Source of the DNA: a virus
IMG/VR virus record: IMGVR_UViG_3300033146_000946
Span: 83,062-147,061 of that record
Length of the DNA stretch: 64,000 bases
Strand: one strand, 5' to 3'
Below the pieces are notes generated by a model that ran no database searches, had not been told where the DNA came from, and saw only the letters and a list, made by a program, of their open reading frames with translations. The position numbers and the translations under genes were made by a program. Within the stretch, counting starts at the first letter, position 1. Every line of letters starts with the position of its first letter. Shown here piece after piece: positions 832-30,124 of this stretch.

Positions 832-1185
832 ATGAATATAGTAGAAATGGAAAATAGAATTCTTGAATTAGAAACTGGATTAAGAAAAGTGCAAAATCAA
901 GTAAATTCATTAGAACGTGAATTAGGAAAATATGCAACACAAGGTCATTTAAAAACCTCAGAAGCTAATACAAAAAATCTTATTAATAAAAATAGTATGA
1001 TGATAAATAATTTGGAACAGAGATTGGAAACAATCTCCATTCCAGATGATACAAGATATTATTTAGAAGCAACTGAGATAGAAGATTTTAGAAGTAATTA
1101 TAAACGATTGATAGCTTTAATGGCTGATGCAGAAAAGATGTATCAAGCGTTAATTACTTATGTTAGTCAGTTTGAGCTAAAGTAA
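832..1185 (+). CDS. small coiled-coil protein
   Basis: A 117-residue protein starting 2 nt after the preceding stop, with GAGAAGG upstream of the ATG. It is almost wholly helical; residues 5-70 carry heptad-like Leu/Ile spacing (ENRILELETGLRKV, NNLEQRLETI) typical of a coiled coil. It lies at the end of the left plus-strand virion module, so a chaperone or tail accessory role is possible but not shown. Its last 23 nt overlap the 3' end of the convergent nuclease gene. Confidence 0.6.
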   Translation: MNIVEMENRILELETGLRKVQNQVNSLERELGKYATQGHLKTSEANTKNLINKNSMMINNLEQRLETISIPDDTRYYLEATEIEDFRSNYKRLIALMADAEKMYQALITYVSQFELK

Positions 1186-2182
1186 TACCACTATCTGCCA
1201 TACATTTATCTTTAAAATTACAATAAGCACATTCCATATCACCGATTGGTTCGTGCTTTTTATAATGTTTATTATATTTGATTTTAGATATACGACCACA
1301 ATGGTATTGTAAATCTACATCTGAGTTATTATATATTAATTTATATGATGGATCTGGTAAATGTTGTTCTCTAACATAATTATAAACACTATCAAATTTT
1401 GCTATTATATCACGTAATGAAAATCTCAATTCAGCTAATCTAGATTGATCTTTAGTAGCAGTTGTAGAATGATGTAATAACTCATCAAACGAATCTACTT
1501 GTTGTAAATGAATTGTTTCAAATTCATTACCTGCTTCATCTACTGGAGTTATAATAGCATATTCTTCATCATCTAAATCAACCTTAAAATACATAAGACT
1601 ACCTGTACTTCTATCAATATATAAAAGATAAACTTCTTCTATATTTCTTTCTTTTCCATCACTACATAATACTGGTCCTTGTAAAGAACGTTTTTTATAA
1701 TGCATAGCTTGAATTAAATTTTTTGGCGCAGGTAATGGTATCTTTTTATTAGTACCAAATACAGAATCTACTTTATATGAAGATATAGATTTGATTTCAA
1801 TTCCAATATTTTTATTATTTTCATTGATTAATAAATCCATTTTACCAGAAGTTATAACTTTATGAATAGTATCTTCAGAAATATATTCCATTCGAACTTG
1901 TTCATCAACATATAAATTGTTTTTCTTAAATTCATTTATGATACTATCTTCATACATAATACCTGCATCACAAATATGTCGTACACGTACTGACATTGGA
2001 TTTGTATATTCTTGTCCTAGAAATTTATAAAATAAAGATCTTTGACATTCTCCTATTGTGATACCAGCACCTACTTCAGCAATGCCTTCACTTGCCCAAA
2101 TAACATTCTCTTCACGATATAAAGAACCTTTATCTGCGCTTACTTCATCTAATTTTTTCCCAAATAGTTTTTTGATAAACAT
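1163..2182 (-). CDS. Cas4/RecB-like PD-(D/E)XK nuclease with Fe-S cluster
   Basis: A 339-residue protein with the RecB/Cas4 plan: Cys46 in GECQRSLFYK, Glu79 in GIMYEDS, Asp116 in GKMDLLI, the Glu129-x-Lys131 pair in IGIEIKS, a QAMHYK motif near residue 190, and three closing cysteines (Cys318, Cys321, Cys327). One early plus three late cysteines is the 4Fe-4S arrangement of Cas4 and AddB-type nucleases. Family members cut or resect DNA ends, often 5'-3' on single strands. No Cas1, Cas2 or CRISPR repeat is visible, so a recombination or end-processing role is more likely than spacer capture. It has its own sigma70-like promoter and a GGAG ribosome-binding site. Confidence 0.8.
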   Translation of the reverse strand: MFIKKLFGKKLDEVSADKGSLYREENVIWASEGIAEVGAGITIGECQRSLFYKFLGQEYTNPMSVRVRHICDAGIMYEDSIINEFKKNNLYVDEQVRMEYISEDTIHKVITSGKMDLLINENNKNIGIEIKSISSYKVDSVFGTNKKIPLPAPKNLIQAMHYKKRSLQGPVLCSDGKERNIEEVYLLYIDRSTGSLMYFKVDLDDEEYAIITPVDEAGNEFETIHLQQVDSFDELLHHSTTATKDQSRLAELRFSLRDIIAKFDSVYNYVREQHLPDPSYKLIYNNSDVDLQYHCGRISKIKYNKHYKKHEPIGDMECAYCNFKDKCMADSGITLAQTD

Positions 2183-18804: not shown

Positions 18805-19740
18805 TTAAATTGAACTAACTTCACAAGCTCCGCCTGAGCAAGCAAGTTCACCACTTAAATCGGTATTATCTTGTGTTTCAATTATATCATTAATATTAAA
18901 ATCCTTAATAGCATTATTTAATTTAGAAATTAAATCAGCATATTTAGCTTTTGATATATCTTCAAATGGCATTTGTGGATAAGTACCACCATCTAAAGGA
19001 AGAACTGAAATACCATGATAATGTTTTCTATTTTCCCACATCCAATTACCAACTTCTTCCCATTGATTTTTATCAATAGAAACAGTAACTGAAACATTAT
19101 GAGTATTAGCACCTTCTTTATGACCAGCTTTAATCCATTTATCGTGTACTAATTTAGTTCGTTCTAAAAGATCAATTGGACTTTCATTTCTAAAAATAGC
19201 ACCTTCAGGAGCAGCAATTGGTACTGTTAATACTGCTGTTGTATTAGGTGAGAAATAATCATCTTCTAAAAATTCTTTTGGAAGTAATTCAGAAAGATAT
19301 TTATAAATTGCTTCATCTTTATTAATTCGCATACGACGCACATAATAAGGAGCATGCCATGCATGTATACCAGATGAAGTTTTACCAACTAAACTAGCAG
19401 TTCCACTAGGTTTTACTGTTGTTATTCTTTTACCTGTATTAATACTAATTAATTCAGCAATTCTTTCATTTTCTTTTACAGCTTCTTTACCAGCTTCTTC
19501 CATATCTAATTTAAGTACATCACCAGAAGCAATACCTGTCATCGAAACACCTAATAAGGCATCATTATCAGCATTTTCTTTCCAATCAGATCTTAGATAA
19601 TGAAAGTTAGTATAACCAGCTTGCAATGTACCTAAAAATGCAGCAGCACGAGCTCTAGCATTATATTCTTCTTGAGAATCAATTCCAGATGCGATAATTT
19701 CTGTCAAATTACAATATCCTTTTGATTGTAAACTTATTTC
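18805..19740 (-). CDS. nrdJ: class II ribonucleotide reductase, exon 2 (C-terminal part)
   Basis: Exon 2 begins at 19740 with codons for EISLQSKGYCNLTEI, which continues the NPC motif at the end of exon 1. It encodes 311 residues: YNARARAAAFLGTLQ, the VKPSGTASLVG and HAWHAPYYVRRMRI substrate-site segments, LPLDGGTYPQMPFED, and a C-terminal Cys pair (ACSGGACEV) that can be the redox-active tail. Spliced, the protein is about 673 residues, near the size of monomeric adenosylcobalamin-dependent triphosphate reductases. A TTG inside the exon is not a real start. Confidence 0.85.
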   Translation of the reverse strand, partial: EISLQSKGYCNLTEIIASGIDSQEEYNARARAAAFLGTLQAGYTNFHYLRSDWKENADNDALLGVSMTGIASGDVLKLDMEEAGKEAVKENERIAELISINTGKRITTVKPSGTASLVGKTSSGIHAWHAPYYVRRMRINKDEAIYKYLSELLPKEFLEDDYFSPNTTAVLTVPIAAPEGAIFRNESPIDLLERTKLVHDKWIKAGHKEGANTHNVSVTVSIDKNQWEEVGNWMWENRKHYHGISVLPLDGGTYPQMPFEDISKAKYADLISKLNNAIKDFNINDIIETQDNTDLSGELACSGGACEVSSI

Positions 19741-20660
19741 CTATGAGCAGATAAACTAATATCTGACATTTCGACTATATCTTCAACTTTATATAACATA
19801 CATTTTGGTATATCAGATAAAAATGGTTTAATAAAATTATAAAAAAACTTTAAATCGTTTTCTTTACCTTTACATATAATAGATGTTCCATCTTCTCTAG
19901 CATCTATATCAAATGTTTTTAAAACATCAATAGCTTTTAATCTAAGTTTTTTATCACGTTTACAACATATTGAAATATTTTGATTATATGAACCATCATC
20001 TAAAAACCATAGTAACCAACCAAAATTGGTTAATTTAGTAATAGCTTCTAATTCAGATATAATATCTATATTTCCTAATGGTGTATAATAATCTCCATAA
20101 ATGTGACCTTGTTTATGTGTTCTTATATTAACAATTGAACTAGTTTTAGGATATGCTTTATTTAACATAGAAACTTTCCATTTTAAATATGGAATTTGTT
20201 TTTCTCCATGTATAATGCGTAATCCATGACTTTTCTTATTATAAGAACCATCTCCCAATAATTGAGAATAAATAATACTTCTATTATCTTCTCTAATAGG
20301 TACATAATTTGTATCTAATTTTTCACTTAAAATTTTTAATCTAGCTTTTTTAAAAGTAGATACTGAGAAATATCTATCAAATATACCTTTAGTTAAGTTA
20401 TTAGGTAAATTTAAAGTTTCAAAAAACATTTTACTATTTGATGATTCTAAAAGTATTTCAATTATTTCTTGTCTACTAGGAAATATATTTTTTATAATAT
20501 ATTCTCTTGGTGACATTTTAAAAATACTTTTAAATCTATTATAAATAGTTTTTTCACATACAGAATATTTATTTGTTAAATATTCTATTTTAGTAGCAAA
20601 ATAAGAATAGTCTTTCTTATTAATTGCTTCTTGTATAATTTTATTAAAATCATTTATCAT
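19734..20660 (-). CDS. LAGLIDADG homing endonuclease in the nrdJ intron
   Basis: 308 residues with two LAGLIDADG helices: IYSQLLGDGSY near 135 and WLLWFLDDGSY near 225, each with the catalytic acid. The N-terminus carries a helix-turn-helix-like stretch (TIYNRFKSIFKMSPREYI) that looks like the AraC DNA-binding half. The last codons run through the 3' part of the intron core and its stop lies 7 nt inside exon 2. It should cut intronless nrdJ alleles and drive intron spread. Confidence 0.85.
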   Translation of the reverse strand: MINDFNKIIQEAINKKDYSYFATKIEYLTNKYSVCEKTIYNRFKSIFKMSPREYIIKNIFPSRQEIIEILLESSNSKMFFETLNLPNNLTKGIFDRYFSVSTFKKARLKILSEKLDTNYVPIREDNRSIIYSQLLGDGSYNKKSHGLRIIHGEKQIPYLKWKVSMLNKAYPKTSSIVNIRTHKQGHIYGDYYTPLGNIDIISELEAITKLTNFGWLLWFLDDGSYNQNISICCKRDKKLRLKAIDVLKTFDIDAREDGTSIICKGKENDLKFFYNFIKPFLSDIPKCMLYKVEDIVEMSDISLSAHRK

Positions 20661-20832
20661 TTTTATACCTCACATTATTATATAAAGTGCTTCGCACTAT
20701 TAGTCTGTGAACCTTCCTAATTTATAATTAGGCTTGGCTGCTGATTGTCCAACGCTTTCGCTTTAACAGAGTCCCAGCAGTTCACGAAGTTTTTTAACTT
20801 AGATCACTCTAAGCAGCTGCCAAATAATTCAA
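19741..20832 (-). mobile_element. group I intron in nrdJ
   Basis: 1092 nt. The 5' exon ends GCTGT, which pairs with GCAGC about 12 nt into the intron and places the usual U-G wobble at the splice site. Core strands are recognisable on the minus strand: ATCAGCAGCCAAGCC (P/Q region), GGTTCACAGACTAAT (P7 side) and its partner ATTAGT near the 3' end; the intron ends in G. The homing endonuclease ORF fills a peripheral loop. Joining 20833 to 19740 restores one RNR frame through NPC-C-EISL. Confidence 0.85.
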
Positions 20833-21918
20833 ACAGCAAGGATTAGATCCTAATTCTTTATCATTAGTCCAATAAATACCAGGTTCACCAGCACCAGATG
20901 CTTTTACTTGTTTCCATATTTTATCAAATATATTTCTATCAACTTTATCATATTCAAGAACAATTGAATTATTTGCTCGACCTCTTTGTGGTTCAAAAAT
21001 ATACCAAGGTAATTTTTTTGATTCTTGATACTCAGTATATTGTGATTTAGAAATAAAAACTTCTTTTCTAACTCCATTATAAGAACCTTCAAGAATTACC
21101 ATGTCTCCTTCAAATCTAGGAGCCATAGTAGTTTCAAAATTAATATAACCTTTACAGTTTAACATTTCATTATCTTCAAGTGAAAATAAAGATATTAAAG
21201 CCGAACGTCTAATACCACCAGCTAATACTGCATCTGATATATAACATAATATGTCATGTACTTCTAACGGTGTTAAGTTAGTTTCACCTCGTGTTTCTAT
21301 AATTTTATCTAATTTTTCTGATACGATATCAATACATTCTTTTAATGGTTCTGGTCCAGGTGCTTTACCACCTGCTGTAACTAATTCAGTTCCTTTTGCT
21401 CTAATATCAGAATAATCAAAAACAATTCTTGATGAACCTTTAAAATATGATTTCATTAACATTTTAATTGACTCAGCCCAACCTTCTATTGAATCTCCAA
21501 TAAGATATCTTTTATGTTTTTTAGAAGATGGCGCTTTAACTGTAGGTAATTTTTCTACATGATGTTGTTGTACACTAAATCCAACACCAGATCCACCAAG
21601 TAAATTAAACATAGTTTCATTAAATACAGATGGATGATCAGCAGCAACATATGCACAATTATAAATTCGGTTTGGTGCTACTTCAATTGCTCTTCCAGCA
21701 AATTGTAAGCTTCTCATACTTGGAAATATTTTTTTTGGTATTACAAATTTTCCATATAATTCATATATTTCATCTGCAATATTAGGATATCGTTTTGCAT
21801 GCATATCAGCGTTTCTTTGACAAATCTCAATCCAGTTTTCTCGTCGTTGTAATGATTTATTATATTTAGCATATTTACTATAAATCACAATCTGTGATAA
21901 AAATTCTTTTGAATCCAT
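20833..21918 (-). CDS. nrdJ: class II ribonucleotide reductase, exon 1 (N-terminal part)
   Basis: 362 residues up to NPCC. Features: SMRSLQFAG, the first active-site Cys in NRIYNCAYVA near 85, LGGSGVGFSVQ near 107, RAKGTELVTAGGKAPGP near 190, AVLAGGIRRSALIS near 235, and EPGIYW near 345, in the order of RTPR/NrdJ enzymes. It makes deoxynucleotides from ribonucleotides using adenosylcobalamin, so it needs no NrdB; none is visible here. Without splicing the frame stops 8 codons later. GGAGG precedes the ATG. Confidence 0.88.
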
Positions 21919-23043: not shown

Positions 23044-23793
23044 CTAATGAATATGATAATCGTATAAGTTATTAATAACTCGATCATAATCTAAATGAAC
23101 TTTTTTAAACATAAATCTAAATCGATGCCACCAAGCACCAGGTAATTGCATAAGTTTAGAATTATAAGGATGTTCATAACCCATTTCAATAGGTGGAACA
23201 TCACATACTATATCATGTGTAAAAAATACTCGCAGATAATCGATTGAATTATTTACCAAATATTCAGCAAGATTTCTATCAGCTATTCTAGGTTGACCAT
23301 ATGTTGTAACATATAATGTTAAATGATCAGCATAGTTATTTAATTTTAACAAAGTAGCAGCCATTAATGCTAACGCTCCACCTCTAGAATGACCTATAAA
23401 ATTATTATCTTTTGCTGTATTTAATTTTTCTTTAATTAAATCTATTAATTTAATAGATTTTTTATTTTTAGTATTATATTTATATAAATCTAATAAAGAT
23501 AAATAAAAACCTTGATGAAATTTAATATCATTAATATTAATTCCTATAGCATCAAAATTATTAAGCCAATCTATAACATCATTAGATCCAAGAAATATAA
23601 AATTTATTTCTTTAGAATTTTCTGCGATATACATCACATCATTTCCTATAACGTATCTTTTAAAATGATATACATTATTTCTTTGATTTTTTAAATGTAA
23701 TTTGATAGTTGCAGCATGTGCTCCATCTGTATACATTTTTTGGGCAAAATGATAAAGTTGCCAATGATTAAATGTTCTATCTAATTTATTCAT
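23044..23793 (-). CDS. class 3 lipase-like alpha/beta hydrolase
   Basis: 249 residues. The nucleophile elbow is FIGHSRGGALA (Ser136), preceded by the conserved HQGFYLSL segment; then TYGQPRIADR, Asp194 in FFTHDIVCDVPP and His208 in GYEHP complete the usual class 3 lipase triad order. Such enzymes hydrolyse acyl esters of lipids. It has no signal peptide, so it would act inside the cell unless released by lysis or carried in the virion. Unusual in a phage replication region. Confidence 0.75.
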   Translation of the reverse strand: MNKLDRTFNHWQLYHFAQKMYTDGAHAATIKLHLKNQRNNVYHFKRYVIGNDVMYIAENSKEINFIFLGSNDVIDWLNNFDAIGININDIKFHQGFYLSLLDLYKYNTKNKKSIKLIDLIKEKLNTAKDNNFIGHSRGGALALMAATLLKLNNYADHLTLYVTTYGQPRIADRNLAEYLVNNSIDYLRVFFTHDIVCDVPPIEMGYEHPYNSKLMQLPGAWWHRFRFMFKKVHLDYDRVINNLYDYHIH

Positions 23794-24523: not shown

Positions 24524-25177
24524 CTAATGTTTTCTAAAAGCTATATTATATTTTTTGTCTACCATACATAAATTACAAGATTTACAACTACCAGGACATA
24601 ATTTATATCCTTCTGGTATTTCTTCATTTTTATCTAATATAGTTGTCATACCATTATTACCTTTATTATGTCCAGAACCTTTAACTAAAAAAGATACATT
24701 TTTAAAATTAAGATCTTTTCTAGATGTATAACCATAAACTACAATTCCAAAATTTCTTAATTTTTTAGCAATAACATCTAGTTTTTTAATATCATGTTGA
24801 TCCCAAAAATCTCCAGCTTCATTAAATCTAATATATTTAATAGGTATACTAGATTTTTTATCAGCTATTTTTTTAATAATATCATTAGATATAGTAGTAG
24901 CTGAATTATTTCTCCAATAATTAAATTGTCTTTGTCGATAAGGTTCAACTTGTTTATATAATTGTTCTGCTTTTAAAGCATAACATTTAGCACCATTTTT
25001 AACAGCATTACACATTCCAAGTTCTTTACTTGGACAATTAGTAGCTGATCCCATATTTAAAATTAAAGTATTTTTACCAAGTTTAGTATTACCTATTGAT
25101 ATTTCTAATATATTTGAATCATTTGTAACTAATGCCATTTTTTTTAAAAGTTTATTTATTTTTTGTAATTTATTCAT
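24524..25177 (-). CDS. Gp88-like / radical-SAM-like phage protein
   Basis: 217 residues. Cysteines and spacing match the phage gp88 family: ATNCPSKELGMC then KCYALKAEQLYKQVEPYRQRQ, followed by IRFNEAGDFWDQ and a closing LCPGSCKSCNLC. The Cys sets suggest an Fe-S cluster. The family has been compared to radical-SAM enzymes, but its reaction is unknown. Confidence 0.65.
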   Translation of the reverse strand: MNKLQKINKLLKKMALVTNDSNILEISIGNTKLGKNTLILNMGSATNCPSKELGMCNAVKNGAKCYALKAEQLYKQVEPYRQRQFNYWRNNSATTISNDIIKKIADKKSSIPIKYIRFNEAGDFWDQHDIKKLDVIAKKLRNFGIVVYGYTSRKDLNFKNVSFLVKGSGHNKGNNGMTTILDKNEEIPEGYKLCPGSCKSCNLCMVDKKYNIAFRKH

Positions 25178-25178
25178 T

Positions 25179-25529
25179 TTATTTTTCCTTATATAATTCT
25201 TTTAATTTTGATATTATATCTAAAATTTCAATTAATTTTTTATGTATTTTCATAGATAGTATTTTTTTTATTATTTTTATATGTTTAAATAATTTAAATA
25301 CTTTAAATATAGGTAATAATAATATAATATCAAACCAATAATTTTTAAAAAAATCTTTTTTATTATTATATATAATAAAAAGATATATTAATTCTATTAT
25401 ATAATAGAATGAAATAATATATAAAATATTATGTATAATATTATTTTTAAATTTAAATGATAAAAAAAATACTATTACCCATATTATAAATATTATATAT
25501 TTGATAATTTTATTAAATTTTAAATTCAT
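25179..25529 (-). CDS. stand-alone voltage-sensor-like membrane protein
   Basis: 116 residues with four hydrophobic helices. S2 carries an acid (IIELIYL, Glu46); the S2-S3 linker KKDFFKNYWFDIILLLPI closely resembles the FFK..W..ID..LLP stretch of Kv channels, with Asp67 in S3; S4 has lysine every third residue (76, 79, 82, 85, 88). There is no pore helix or TVGYG selectivity filter. After S4 comes an amphipathic helix. It may sense membrane potential or block a host channel; function unknown. Confidence 0.65.
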   Translation of the reverse strand: MNLKFNKIIKYIIFIIWVIVFFLSFKFKNNIIHNILYIISFYYIIELIYLFIIYNNKKDFFKNYWFDIILLLPIFKVFKLFKHIKIIKKILSMKIHKKLIEILDIISKLKELYKEK

Positions 25530-25857
25530 TACAATTTATTATTTTTATAGTTATATTTAATTTTTTTATTTTATTTACATATTTTAACATTTTAGCTTTA
25601 TTAAAATCATGTTTAGTAAAACATAATAAAAATATACCTGGTTTTTTTCCAGTAAATGTACTATATGCTAATGCTTGACCGATTGCTTCATACCATTTAC
25701 AAGCAAAATCTACTTCATATGCATGCGACTTTGTAATTATATCAACACTTAATCCATTATCTAATTTATATTCAATTTTACCATTAATAATATCAGCTAA
25801 TTTGATCTGATATTGTTGTTCTGATAATTCTTTTTTTTTAGTATTATTAATAATCAT
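25513..25857 (-). CDS. small PD-(D/E)XK nuclease-like protein
   Basis: 114 residues. SVDIITKSHAYEVDFACKW gives the D, the E-x-D and the K positions of a PD-(D/E)XK core, then EAIGQALAYSTFTGKKPGI with the Gln of motif IV. Proteins of this length and pattern are frequent in phages and mobile elements. DNA cleavage is likely if the core is intact. It overlaps the membrane gene by 17 nt. Confidence 0.6.
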   Translation of the reverse strand: MIINNTKKKELSEQQYQIKLADIINGKIEYKLDNGLSVDIITKSHAYEVDFACKWYEAIGQALAYSTFTGKKPGIFLLCFTKHDFNKAKMLKYVNKIKKLNITIKIINCNEFKI

Positions 25858-26731: not shown

Positions 26732-29700
26732 TTATTCAAAATCATGATTAACTTTATCTAATTTAACTTTATCTGGAATATCATCTAAACCAATATCGAT
26801 AAATAAAGATTGTTGTTTAACACGAGAGATGTTAAATTTATTTAACATCTTATCTATTTGTTTATTATAATAACTAATATCTATTTCAGATATGTCCTTA
26901 GCTAATTTAATAAATTTATAATTTTCACCAGTTTTTTTCTCATAAAACTTTTTAAATTTTGGATCAGTTAAAGGTTTACACGTAATAATGTAAGGAATAG
27001 TTGTATCAACTGCAGGTTTAGAATGAGTAAGATGTTCATATTGAGCTGCTAAAAATGCAACTTGACCAGTTTTATCATCGTATTCATCTAAATCTTTATT
27101 TAATCTAATCCTATATTCAAAATCCTTTAATTCTAATCCAGTAAAATCATATGCTTCTCTAATAACTTCTTCCATTGGTTTATTATTAAACCAATATTCA
27201 ATAGCTAAATCACGAGCCCTATCTTGTACATAACAATTACGAGATGATTTTAATGAAGATCCATGTAAGTGAGTATGTCCTTCAATTTCAACAACATAAT
27301 TTTTCATAGCACAAAAATAAGCTGGTCCTACAATATCTAGTTCCATTTGCATATAATTTTCATCAATACCAAATTGATTAATCATTAATTGATCTAACCA
27401 TTTATTAGTTTCTTCTTCAGAAATCCATTTATCAATAGCAAGACCATCAGTATTATGTAAAACTATATTACCTAATGCTGTAACAAAAGTTCCATCATCA
27501 GTTGATATATCATAAACATATGTATCATTTTTATTAGATATTATTATATTATTTTTAATAACTAAACCATTAGAATAATCTTCATCATTATATCTAACAC
27601 ATCTATATGTATTACCATTATTAACTAAATATATTTTACAATCATTAAATATAAATTGTATACCAGCAGCTAATGTTTTAGATGAGGTATCAATATATCT
27701 ATTTTTACGCATACTATAAGGTTTAATTGCATACGTTGAATCAGCTAATAAACCACCAATAAATGCATCACCTTTTTCGACATTGTTTATAATATCAATA
27801 GGCACTTTACTATATCCATTTTTTGTATATAATTTTTTAATTAAAAACTCATATATTTTAAAACTATTTTTACCCCAAGGTATAAGTTCATAATGATTTC
27901 TAAATTCTGTTGTTCTAAATCTACATTCAAATTTTGAACCAATATATAAATTTAGTAATTTAACAATGTTTGTTTTTATATGTTTATATTTTTTACTTAA
28001 AATTAATTTTGTTTTTAAAGTTCTAAATCTAGTTTTATATGTATCTATTTTAATATTATTAAGTAAAAATCCATATAACCATGCTAATTCATTATTTATA
28101 AAATTATTATTTGGTATATAAAAATAATCAGTTAATTCAATATGACTTTTATTTACGATAATATCTTTTGGTGTTAATTCTTCTTCATTATTATTAAATA
28201 AAGAATGATCTTCTGTTATATCAACAAAACCATTTTTTATTCTAGTTCTATATATATTTTTTGATACTTCATGTCGTTTCGTATAATTAATATCAGCCCA
28301 ACCATGTCTAGTTAAAGCTTTAATAGGTTCAACTACTTCATAATTTTTAGCATCACCTCTATGTATATCTTCAATAGGAATTATATCTACCATATTCATA
28401 AATTTATTTTTAACCCAAATAGGAGTATCACCAGTTACACTATCGAGTTCTACTAATTCATCTTCGTATTTAACAATAGTTTTACCAGTAGTATATCTAC
28501 ACATTGCTGTAATAGTTGCACCAGTTATAGTATCACCATATGTTGAACTTTTTAAACCTTGAATACCATAAATAGAATTCAAAATAATTTTAATAGCAAG
28601 CTGTTGAGAATCAAGCATAGGAACTAATTCAGGATTAGTTTTAGCTGCTTCTTTCATCTCTTTTTTAATAGCTTTACGTTCAGCCCAAAGCATCTTAATT
28701 TCTTTTTTAAGAATACCTTCAATATCATTTCTAACACGAACTACGAGATCTACACCAAAGTTTTTATCTGGAAATGAATGCCAATCATATTTAGCAGTCT
28801 TTTTAAATTTGTATTTACCAGTATAAGGTCTAACTTCAATTAATTTAGTTGTATCAGGTCCTAAATTAAAAGTACATATAGCAGAAGGATACATAGATGT
28901 AAAGTCAAGTTTATATGTATCTTCAAATTTACCATATTTATATAAACCAACGAGTGCACCTTGATATTTTAATTCTTTATTATCATATTTTCTAAATTGA
29001 TATCTAGTACCAGTTCTAGAATTATATTTACTAAAATTAGTTTCAGTAGATATAAGTTTATTTTTATAAAAGTTACGAGCTAAAAATATTTTAGGTATAA
29101 AAGATGGATAACTATTCATAGTATCATTTAAAGATACTTGAACTTTTTCAGCAAGTGTTATATCATTTCTAATATAAACAGCACCTACATGTTCAGTTCT
29201 AATAACATCTGCTTTTTGATATGACCATAATAAATCTGGATTTTCAGTTCTAACTTTTTCAGTATTTCTAATAGCATCTTCAAGTTCAACATCAGCATCT
29301 TTATCAAGTGGTACTTTATAATGTCGTGCTAATGTTTTTAATGATTTATTTTTAAGACCATATAATGATTGATCTTTAAGAACTTTAAGATACATATCAT
29401 AATGTATTCTACCATTAATAAATATTTGACCTCTGTCATTTATAAATGGAGATTTATTTTCTCGAGCAAAACCTTGCATAGATACTTTTCTAATTTTACA
29501 TCGATTATAAAAATAAGGAAAGTCAAATATTTCTGAGTTATATCCAGCTAATATATCAACATCCCATTTTCTCATAGCTTCTACAAAATCTTGTAGAATA
29601 AATAAATCTGTTTTATCTTCGTCATAATTATTAAGTAATGTATAATTTAACTTTTCCTTTGATCCATCAGGATGATAATCCCAAATAGAAAATCCTATAC

Positions 29701-30124
29701 AAATAATAGGTTGTTTTTCTGGTTTTGGGAATACATCATCACCAACAGTTCTAGTCTCAATATCCCAGAACATTATTCTAATTTTTTCTTCATGAGGAAA
29801 TTTTAAAATAAAATCTGGATCACTAATATATAATTGTTCGACATAACTATTATTATAAATTTGATTTATTTTATCTTTATGTCTATCAAGAAATTCTCGT
29901 TGTTGAGCCGTATCATTAAATACGACTCTTTTATAATTAGTTAATTCATCATCTGGGATTTTAGTCCATTTTTCAATAGCTTTATTTGAGACAGAAACTT
30001 CTGGAAAAGCTGACTCTTCCAGAAGATTAAAAGGTTTAAAAGGAAAATTTGTATATACAAATTTATTATTATGAAAGATCCTCAGATTCGTTTTCGTTGC
30101 TTTCAACAGTAGCGGTACTTTCAT
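26732..30124 (-). CDS. family B DNA polymerase containing an intein
   Basis: 1130 residues before splicing, about 800 after. Exonuclease motifs: FWDIETR (Asp121, Glu123), GYNSEIFDFPYF near 195. Polymerase motif A DFTSMYPSAI near 408 and motif B KIILNSIYG near 512. Motif C is split: Asp561 precedes the intein and Thr892-Asp893 follow, so DTD exists only after splicing. ATG at 30124 follows GAGGAAG and overlaps the previous gene by 56 nt. It is the replicative polymerase with proofreading. Confidence 0.92.
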   Translation of the reverse strand: MKVPLLLKATKTNLRIFHNNKFVYTNFPFKPFNLLEESAFPEVSVSNKAIEKWTKIPDDELTNYKRVVFNDTAQQREFLDRHKDKINQIYNNSYVEQLYISDPDFILKFPHEEKIRIMFWDIETRTVGDDVFPKPEKQPIICIGFSIWDYHPDGSKEKLNYTLLNNYDEDKTDLFILQDFVEAMRKWDVDILAGYNSEIFDFPYFYNRCKIRKVSMQGFARENKSPFINDRGQIFINGRIHYDMYLKVLKDQSLYGLKNKSLKTLARHYKVPLDKDADVELEDAIRNTEKVRTENPDLLWSYQKADVIRTEHVGAVYIRNDITLAEKVQVSLNDTMNSYPSFIPKIFLARNFYKNKLISTETNFSKYNSRTGTRYQFRKYDNKELKYQGALVGLYKYGKFEDTYKLDFTSMYPSAICTFNLGPDTTKLIEVRPYTGKYKFKKTAKYDWHSFPDKNFGVDLVVRVRNDIEGILKKEIKMLWAERKAIKKEMKEAAKTNPELVPMLDSQQLAIKIILNSIYGIQGLKSSTYGDTITGATITAMCRYTTGKTIVKYEDELVELDSVTGDTPIWVKNKFMNMVDIIPIEDIHRGDAKNYEVVEPIKALTRHGWADINYTKRHEVSKNIYRTRIKNGFVDITEDHSLFNNNEEELTPKDIIVNKSHIELTDYFYIPNNNFINNELAWLYGFLLNNIKIDTYKTRFRTLKTKLILSKKYKHIKTNIVKLLNLYIGSKFECRFRTTEFRNHYELIPWGKNSFKIYEFLIKKLYTKNGYSKVPIDIINNVEKGDAFIGGLLADSTYAIKPYSMRKNRYIDTSSKTLAAGIQFIFNDCKIYLVNNGNTYRCVRYNDEDYSNGLVIKNNIIISNKNDTYVYDISTDDGTFVTALGNIVLHNTDGLAIDKWISEEETNKWLDQLMINQFGIDENYMQMELDIVGPAYFCAMKNYVVEIEGHTHLHGSSLKSSRNCYVQDRARDLAIEYWFNNKPMEEVIREAYDFTGLELKDFEYRIRLNKDLDEYDDKTGQVAFLAAQYEHLTHSKPAVDTTIPYIITCKPLTDPKFKKFYEKKTGENYKFIKLAKDISEIDISYYNKQIDKMLNKFNISRVKQQSLFIDIGLDDIPDKVKLDKVNHDFE
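27452..28441 (-). mobile_element. intein in DNA polymerase motif C
   Basis: Residues 562-891 (330 aa). Block A is SVTGDTPIWV with Ser as first residue; block B is ITEDHSLF; blocks F and G are STDDGTFVTALGNIVLHN, ending His-Asn before the +1 Thr. A LAGLIDADG-type insert is visible: WLYGFLLNN lacks the catalytic acid while AFIGGLLADS keeps one Asp, so the endonuclease looks partly decayed while splicing residues are intact. Confidence 0.88.

Follow-up and report, generated by a model that had tools for sequence, protein, structure and literature searches.

Can a virus of bacteria encode a voltage sensor without a pore? The question is raised by a small open reading frame, P0001, which an earlier note made from the sequence had read as a stand-alone voltage-sensor domain. 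To our knowledge, stand-alone voltage sensors have been described solely from eukaryotes. In a 2023 review that included database searches, every known prokaryotic voltage-sensing domain was found to come with a pore, and no Hv-type channel was recorded from bacteria or archaea (PMC10377628). If the reading is true, a free-standing phage sensor breaks this pattern of a pore with every prokaryotic sensor (PMC10377628), and P0001, at 116 residues, is a minimal natural sensor. A further implication would be that phages use channel parts to tamper with the electrical state of their hosts. Our literature search found no papers on phage voltage sensors.

The DNA analyzed here (the window, 64,000 nucleotides) belongs to a 147,061-base virus record of 20-26% GC, in which tail sheath, portal and terminase genes indicate a contractile-tailed phage. 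Among named phages, Moorella phage MTATph1 has the most similar terminase (31% identity). The list of open reading frames confirmed P0001 at 25179-25529 as a 116-amino acid frame with an ATG start and placed it on the minus strand of the window, which the earlier note had left unstated. The gene is tightly packed among other minus-strand genes. Its start is overlapped by 17 bp by an upstream gene of 114 amino acids (25513-25857, minus strand), which looks nuclease-like by eye only and whose product gave no match in family-library searches. After a gap of 1 bp it is followed by a gene for a GP88-like protein (24524-25177, minus strand; Pfam PF17338, E=3.7e-9). Scans of P0001 with PADLOC (defence) and NCBIfam gave no matches.

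The charged residues on which the voltage-sensor reading had been based (Glu46, Asp67 and Lys76, 79, 82, 85 and 88) were found at exactly these positions of P0001, and the linker/S3 string quoted in its support, KKDFFKNYWFDIILLLPI, corresponds to residues 57-74. An AlphaFold single-sequence model (pLDDT 79.5, pTM 0.51) contained helices at residues 4-27, 31-53, 57-69, 72-91 and 94-115. Thus, the four helices proposed earlier were roughly right for S1-S4, but the model shortens S3 and adds a fifth helix. Predicted helix S1 (residues 4-27; 25449-25520, minus strand, as are all features of P0001) has no acidic residue, and residues 1-45 as a whole contain neither Asp nor Glu. Helix S2 (residues 31-53; 25371-25439) includes Tyr43 and Glu46, which align with the F-xx-D/E of phage Kv channels. 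Glu46 (25392-25394) occupies the S2 counter-charge position, 21 residues ahead of Asp67, as in short-loop phage Kv channels; Asp67 (25329-25331) aligns with the S3 acid of those channels. Residues 57-73 (KKDFFKNYWFDIILLLP; 25311-25361) were assigned to the S2-S3 linker and a short S3 from HMM and hhalign alignments. The sole proline of P0001, Pro73 (25311-25313), aligns with the conserved S3 proline and is invariant in alignment A1, for which channels were fetched without the use of P0001 residues. The invariance of Lys57, Phe60, Phe61, Asp67 and Pro73 in alignment A3 arises by construction, from a P0001-derived pattern.

All elements of a charge-transfer centre, an S2 aromatic residue and acid and an S3 acid, are therefore present as Tyr43, Glu46 and Asp67 with the channel-like steps of 3 and 21, and the full spacing, Tyr43-xx-Glu46-x20-Asp67-x5-Pro73, is that of most short-loop phage channels. 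A motif rule that combined this spacing, as [FYW]xx[DE]-x20-[DE]-x5-P, with at least four basic residues at i+3 matched P0001 alone among 2,049 stop-to-stop segments of the phage. Outside the phage, where 6,073 ORFs were scanned, all 44 matches were true channels.

The predicted S4 (residues 74-91, IFKVFKLFKHIKIIKKIL; 25257-25310) carries Lys76, Lys79, Lys82, Lys85 and Lys88 and contains no Arg and no Trp. Its i+3 basic register extends to Lys94 and Lys97 and is broken only by Leu91. Five basic residues in a run at i+3 occurred in 1.2% of composition shuffles, and seven of eight in 0.13%. P0001 contains 21 Lys in all and lacks Arg entirely; in the long ORFs of this phage, the Lys fraction of Lys plus Arg is 0.72. 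In related full channels, the i+3 spacing of basic residues is conserved and arginine is prominent. In a rough comparison that included a few wrongly picked stretches, 35 of 35 S4 regions of phage and Bacillota Kv channels had at least two Arg, in contrast to none in P0001; judged by sequence, its all-lysine S4 appears atypical. Two phage Kv channels (L037:1885-2769, minus strand, and L120:10182-10946, plus strand) have a lysine-dominated S4, with 6 Lys and 3 Arg in the compared region. One paper considers it possible that mobile gating charge is never carried by lysine (PMC4761985), an idea that an all-lysine S4 would put to the test if P0001 is a sensor. Since every S4 charge of P0001 is a lysine, voltage-driven movement of this helix is uncertain. 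Beyond S4, the fifth predicted helix (residues 94-115; 25185-25250) is amphipathic (hydrophobic moment 0.43) and lies at the place of the S4-S5 linker in the HMM alignment, in which the C-terminus of P0001 coincides with the point where S5 would begin.

Because the composition of P0001 is extreme, its likeness to voltage sensors was judged against shuffles of the same composition. KvAP served as the query for gathering six-helix channels of phages and plasmids, and profiles of the S1-S4 halves of these channels were built without P0001. A profile of eight phage and bacterial Kv channels, picked from 18 for a short, P0001-like S3-S4 loop, gave P0001 16.0 bits, a score reached by none of 20,000 composition shuffles and by 15 of 20,000 shuffles that preserved hydrophobic and polar classes. 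With the unselected 18-channel profile, P0001 scored 11.5 bits (1/20,000 and 56/20,000 shuffles, respectively). Under both profiles it ranked first among 208 ORFs of the phage, the runner-up scoring 5.2 bits. The HMM bias for P0001 was high (24 bits), and a repetitive ORF with K/R at every third residue, L284, obtained 23.9 bits on the same profile. Since such a repeat can score through S4 alone, S2-S3 was tested apart from S4; it reached 9.5 bits on the eight-channel profile, with 2 of 4,000 and 13 of 4,000 shuffles scoring as well. S4 alone gave 8.0 bits, which was uncommon among shuffles. A further, "big" profile gave 23.3 bits, but its loci had been fetched with a pattern containing P0001 residues, which makes this score partly circular, and we therefore kept it out of the main evidence.

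Matches in family libraries were weak. In Pfam, Ion_trans (PF00520) appeared as a weak second match (E 4.1; 7 bits, the cut-off being 25), and PHROG gave a single match, in which P0001 aligned with the sensor portion of phrog_7872 (E=0.11). This family, labelled "unknown function", appears to be a six-helix Kv channel family, as it strongly matches query sequences representing KvAP (E=1.7e-33) and Kv1.2 (E 1.1e-35). The comparison of a predicted structure with voltage sensors, which had been suggested as a check, returned only chains of the voltage-sensor superfamily, but with poor scores. Foldseek matched three PDB chains, all three from this superfamily, weakly (best E 5.4, TM 0.36), and VIA placed voltage-sensor-superfamily channels in all 11 of its top PDB chains (Z 3.5-6.4, Kv1.3 being best), a Z of 6.4 falling in the range that the tool terms common. 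The structural matches of the model thus agree with a voltage sensor and are not proof of one. Membership of P0001 in the voltage-sensor domain (S1-S4) superfamily is supported by profile similarity. The earlier description of a stand-alone voltage sensor without a pore therefore stands as far as profile similarity, counter-charge spacing and an in-register basic S4 are concerned, and is weak in its structural agreement.

The claim that no pore or selectivity filter follows S4 held. The next gene encodes the GP88-like protein, and searches of the whole 147-kb record with PF07885, PF00520, a pore HMM and the TxGYG filter gave no match. P0001 does not have the S5-P-S6 pore with a filter by which a Kv channel is recognized, and no second voltage sensor was found in the 147-kb record. 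Since related phage channels retain the pore, the pore appears to be the part that was lost.

The nearest known proteins are the six-helix Kv channels of phages and Bacillota (phrog_7872), for example those of Lactobacillus phage PLE2, JNU_P5 (annotated as "ion transporter") and IMG/VR loci L037, L100 and L102. P0001 is 20-32% identical to them and shares the S2 aromatic-xx-acid, the 21-residue step to the S3 acid, the S3 proline, an i+3 basic S4 and a short S3-S4 loop. In contrast to P0001, these proteins (235-294 amino acids) have S5, filter and S6, and they retain an S1 Asp and an S2 Arg that are near-invariant in the family and missing from P0001. The S1-S4 order and the counter-charge positions are also common to KvAP/Ion_trans (PF00520), although P0001 lies far under the Pfam cut-off and has no pore. 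Ci-VSP and TMEM266 resemble P0001 in having S1-S4 without a pore but are eukaryotic; P0001, which ends at residue 116, gave no match to a phosphatase domain and has no other cytosolic domain.

Surveys of other genomes returned channels. A DNA-pattern search of IMG/VR gave at least 33 sensor matches; among those listed, 31 had a filter motif, one (L075) had a degenerate filter and one sensor was cut off by the end of its contig. At least 12 more matches from the same search were all of full channel length. A DNA pattern for S4 only yielded no new channels in the loci examined and one ORF with a K/R period-3 repeat that scored high on the profile. In a sample of 299 Bacillota genomes there were 23 sensor matches and no clear stand-alone sensor. 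Two Bacillota channel genes, L158:1277-1800 and L153:1453-1755 (both minus strand), seem to be frame-broken; in L158, pore and sensor sit in separate adjacent ORFs. A phage Kv channel at L075:2643-3407 (minus strand) has a degenerate filter, SASLFGYEG, and is possibly non-conducting. Direct searches of phages, IMG/VR and GTDB genomes found no relatives of P0001, some of which the BLAST low-complexity filter may hide; alignments A1 and A2 showed too much divergence for use as search queries. Queries with neighboring genes (GP88, polymerase, ligase) also gave no relatives. The reductase query found 53 loci, and the records sampled from these and the closest named phages had no sensor. The terminase query found five close kin (67-80% identity), in whose contigs a polymerase search gave no matches; these contigs therefore seem not to include this region. 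No orthologues were found in these searches, which is a point against the reading proposed below.

We conclude that P0001 probably represents the voltage-sensor half of a bacterial or phage Kv-type channel, comprising S1-S4 and a helix that resembles the S4-S5 linker. The main rival holds that it is a decaying remnant of a former full Kv channel, which lost its pore and left a functionless sensor drifting toward pure AT codons. Consistent with decay, the gene has 8.5% GC, the lowest of 137 phage genes (next, 15.8%), its product lacks Arg, Ala, Gly, Thr, Gln and Cys altogether, and the S1 Asp and S2 Arg that nearly all family members share have been lost. No Shine-Dalgarno sequence was found for P0001, whereas 81 of 124 long ATG ORFs of the phage have one, so its translation would either be coupled to that of the upstream gene or be weak. 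The failure to find orthologues and the resemblance of two sensor-only Bacillota ORFs to frame-broken channels point the same way. However, third-position GC is 6%, normal for this phage, and the bias therefore lies in the choice of amino acids, as in a very hydrophobic protein. The few GC-bearing codons include those of Glu46, Trp65, Asp67 and Pro73, all motif positions but Trp65. The frame stays open across the entire sensor, its stop falls at the domain boundary, 1 bp ahead of the next gene, and no pore remnant was found beside it, unlike in L158. We regard decay as rather unlikely. A different objection is that P0001 has no relation to voltage sensors but is a small membrane protein of holin, antiholin or exclusion type, one of whose helices is cationic and amphipathic, and that its likeness to sensors comes from AT-rich composition and chance. 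The extreme composition, the high HMM bias, the score that L284 obtains through its K/R repeats, the weak library and structure matches and the class-preserving shuffles that outscore P0001 are what such a protein might produce. Against this, hardly any shuffles reach the P0001 score, S2-S3 scores without S4, the structure matches all come from one superfamily, and the exact Y-xx-E-x20-D-x5-P spacing together with S4 gave no false matches elsewhere. This origin is accordingly improbable.

What a sensor half without its S5-pore-S6 part might do is a separate matter. Since sensor and linker are kept and the pore is not, P0001 most likely acts on another membrane component. The single most likely function, although in itself doubtful, is to interfere with a host Kv-type channel or to serve it as an accessory; this is favored by analogy, because sensor and linker are the parts by which Kv channels contact the pore and because the two modules work unlinked in hERG. 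In that channel, gating is reported to have been reconstituted from sensor and pore modules produced apart from each other, which makes it physically plausible that a free sensor acts on a pore (PMC5805800). The sequence statistics relate P0001 to the short-loop Kv sensors of phages and Bacillota, and the record encodes no pore alongside it. From there, P0001 would insert as a small bundle of helices into the membrane of the host and might dock on, or mix into, a host Kv-type channel and disturb its gating or assembly. Host potassium or potential homeostasis would then be disturbed in infection. Taken together, the reading of P0001 as a Kv-type sensor half lacking S5-pore-S6 and most likely acting on a host Kv-type channel is tentative, with somewhat less than an even chance of being correct. 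That it is a pore-less voltage sensor in a bacterial virus, the first outside eukaryotes, which senses host potential with its all-lysine S4 and controls a host channel or a step of infection, we consider unlikely. The earlier note had also raised proton conduction, here taken to mean that the sensor itself conducts, either as an Hv1-like voltage-gated proton channel or by an omega-type cation leak, and so lowers proton motive force. The predicted layout of P0001, a pore-less four-helix sensor followed by an amphipathic C-terminal helix, resembles that of Hv1/VSOP, and an Hv1 chimera was the top PDB match in Foldseek, with an E value of no better than 5.4. But Hv1/VSOP proteins are eukaryotic and about twice as long; their acidic S1 selectivity residue and RxWRxxR/K S4 motif (PMC10377628) are missing in P0001, whose S1 has no acid and whose S4 has no Trp or Arg. 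Ci-VSP, which also has no S1 acid, gave no proton-selective current (PMC10377628). The C-terminal helix of Hv1 forms a dimeric coiled coil, for which the predicted amphipathic helix at residues 94-115 of P0001 is at most a candidate. The missing S1 acid and S4 Trp/Arg signature make proton conduction very improbable. A free sensor that signals depolarisation, caused by superinfection or host defence, to a further protein of the phage, for instance to time lysis, would fit a sensor motif retained without a pore, and TMEM266, a pore-less sensor with no known channel activity, can move with voltage (PMC6392501). P0001, however, has no effector domain, no suitable partner gene adjoins it, no link to a holin was found and its S4 is all lysine; such a reporter seems quite improbable.

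Two other genes in the window seem to bear marks of insertion. A class II ribonucleotide reductase (18805-21918, minus strand) is split into two ORFs that match positions 34-389 and 426-697 of phrog_367, and a LAGLIDADG homing-endonuclease ORF (19734-20660) lies between the halves, suggesting an intron- or intein-like invasion; no Rfam intron family was found at the gathering score at this split. The family B DNA polymerase (1130 amino acids; 26732-30124, minus strand) seems, when read by eye, to hold an intein, the insert SVTGDTPIWV...NIVLHN sitting ahead of the TDG of the active-site motif. A class 3 lipase gene (23044-23793, minus strand) adjoins a gene for an endonuclease VII-like protein, and a match to a Cas4-like exonuclease family (phrog_1706, E 3.9e-13) was found at 1163-2182 (minus strand).
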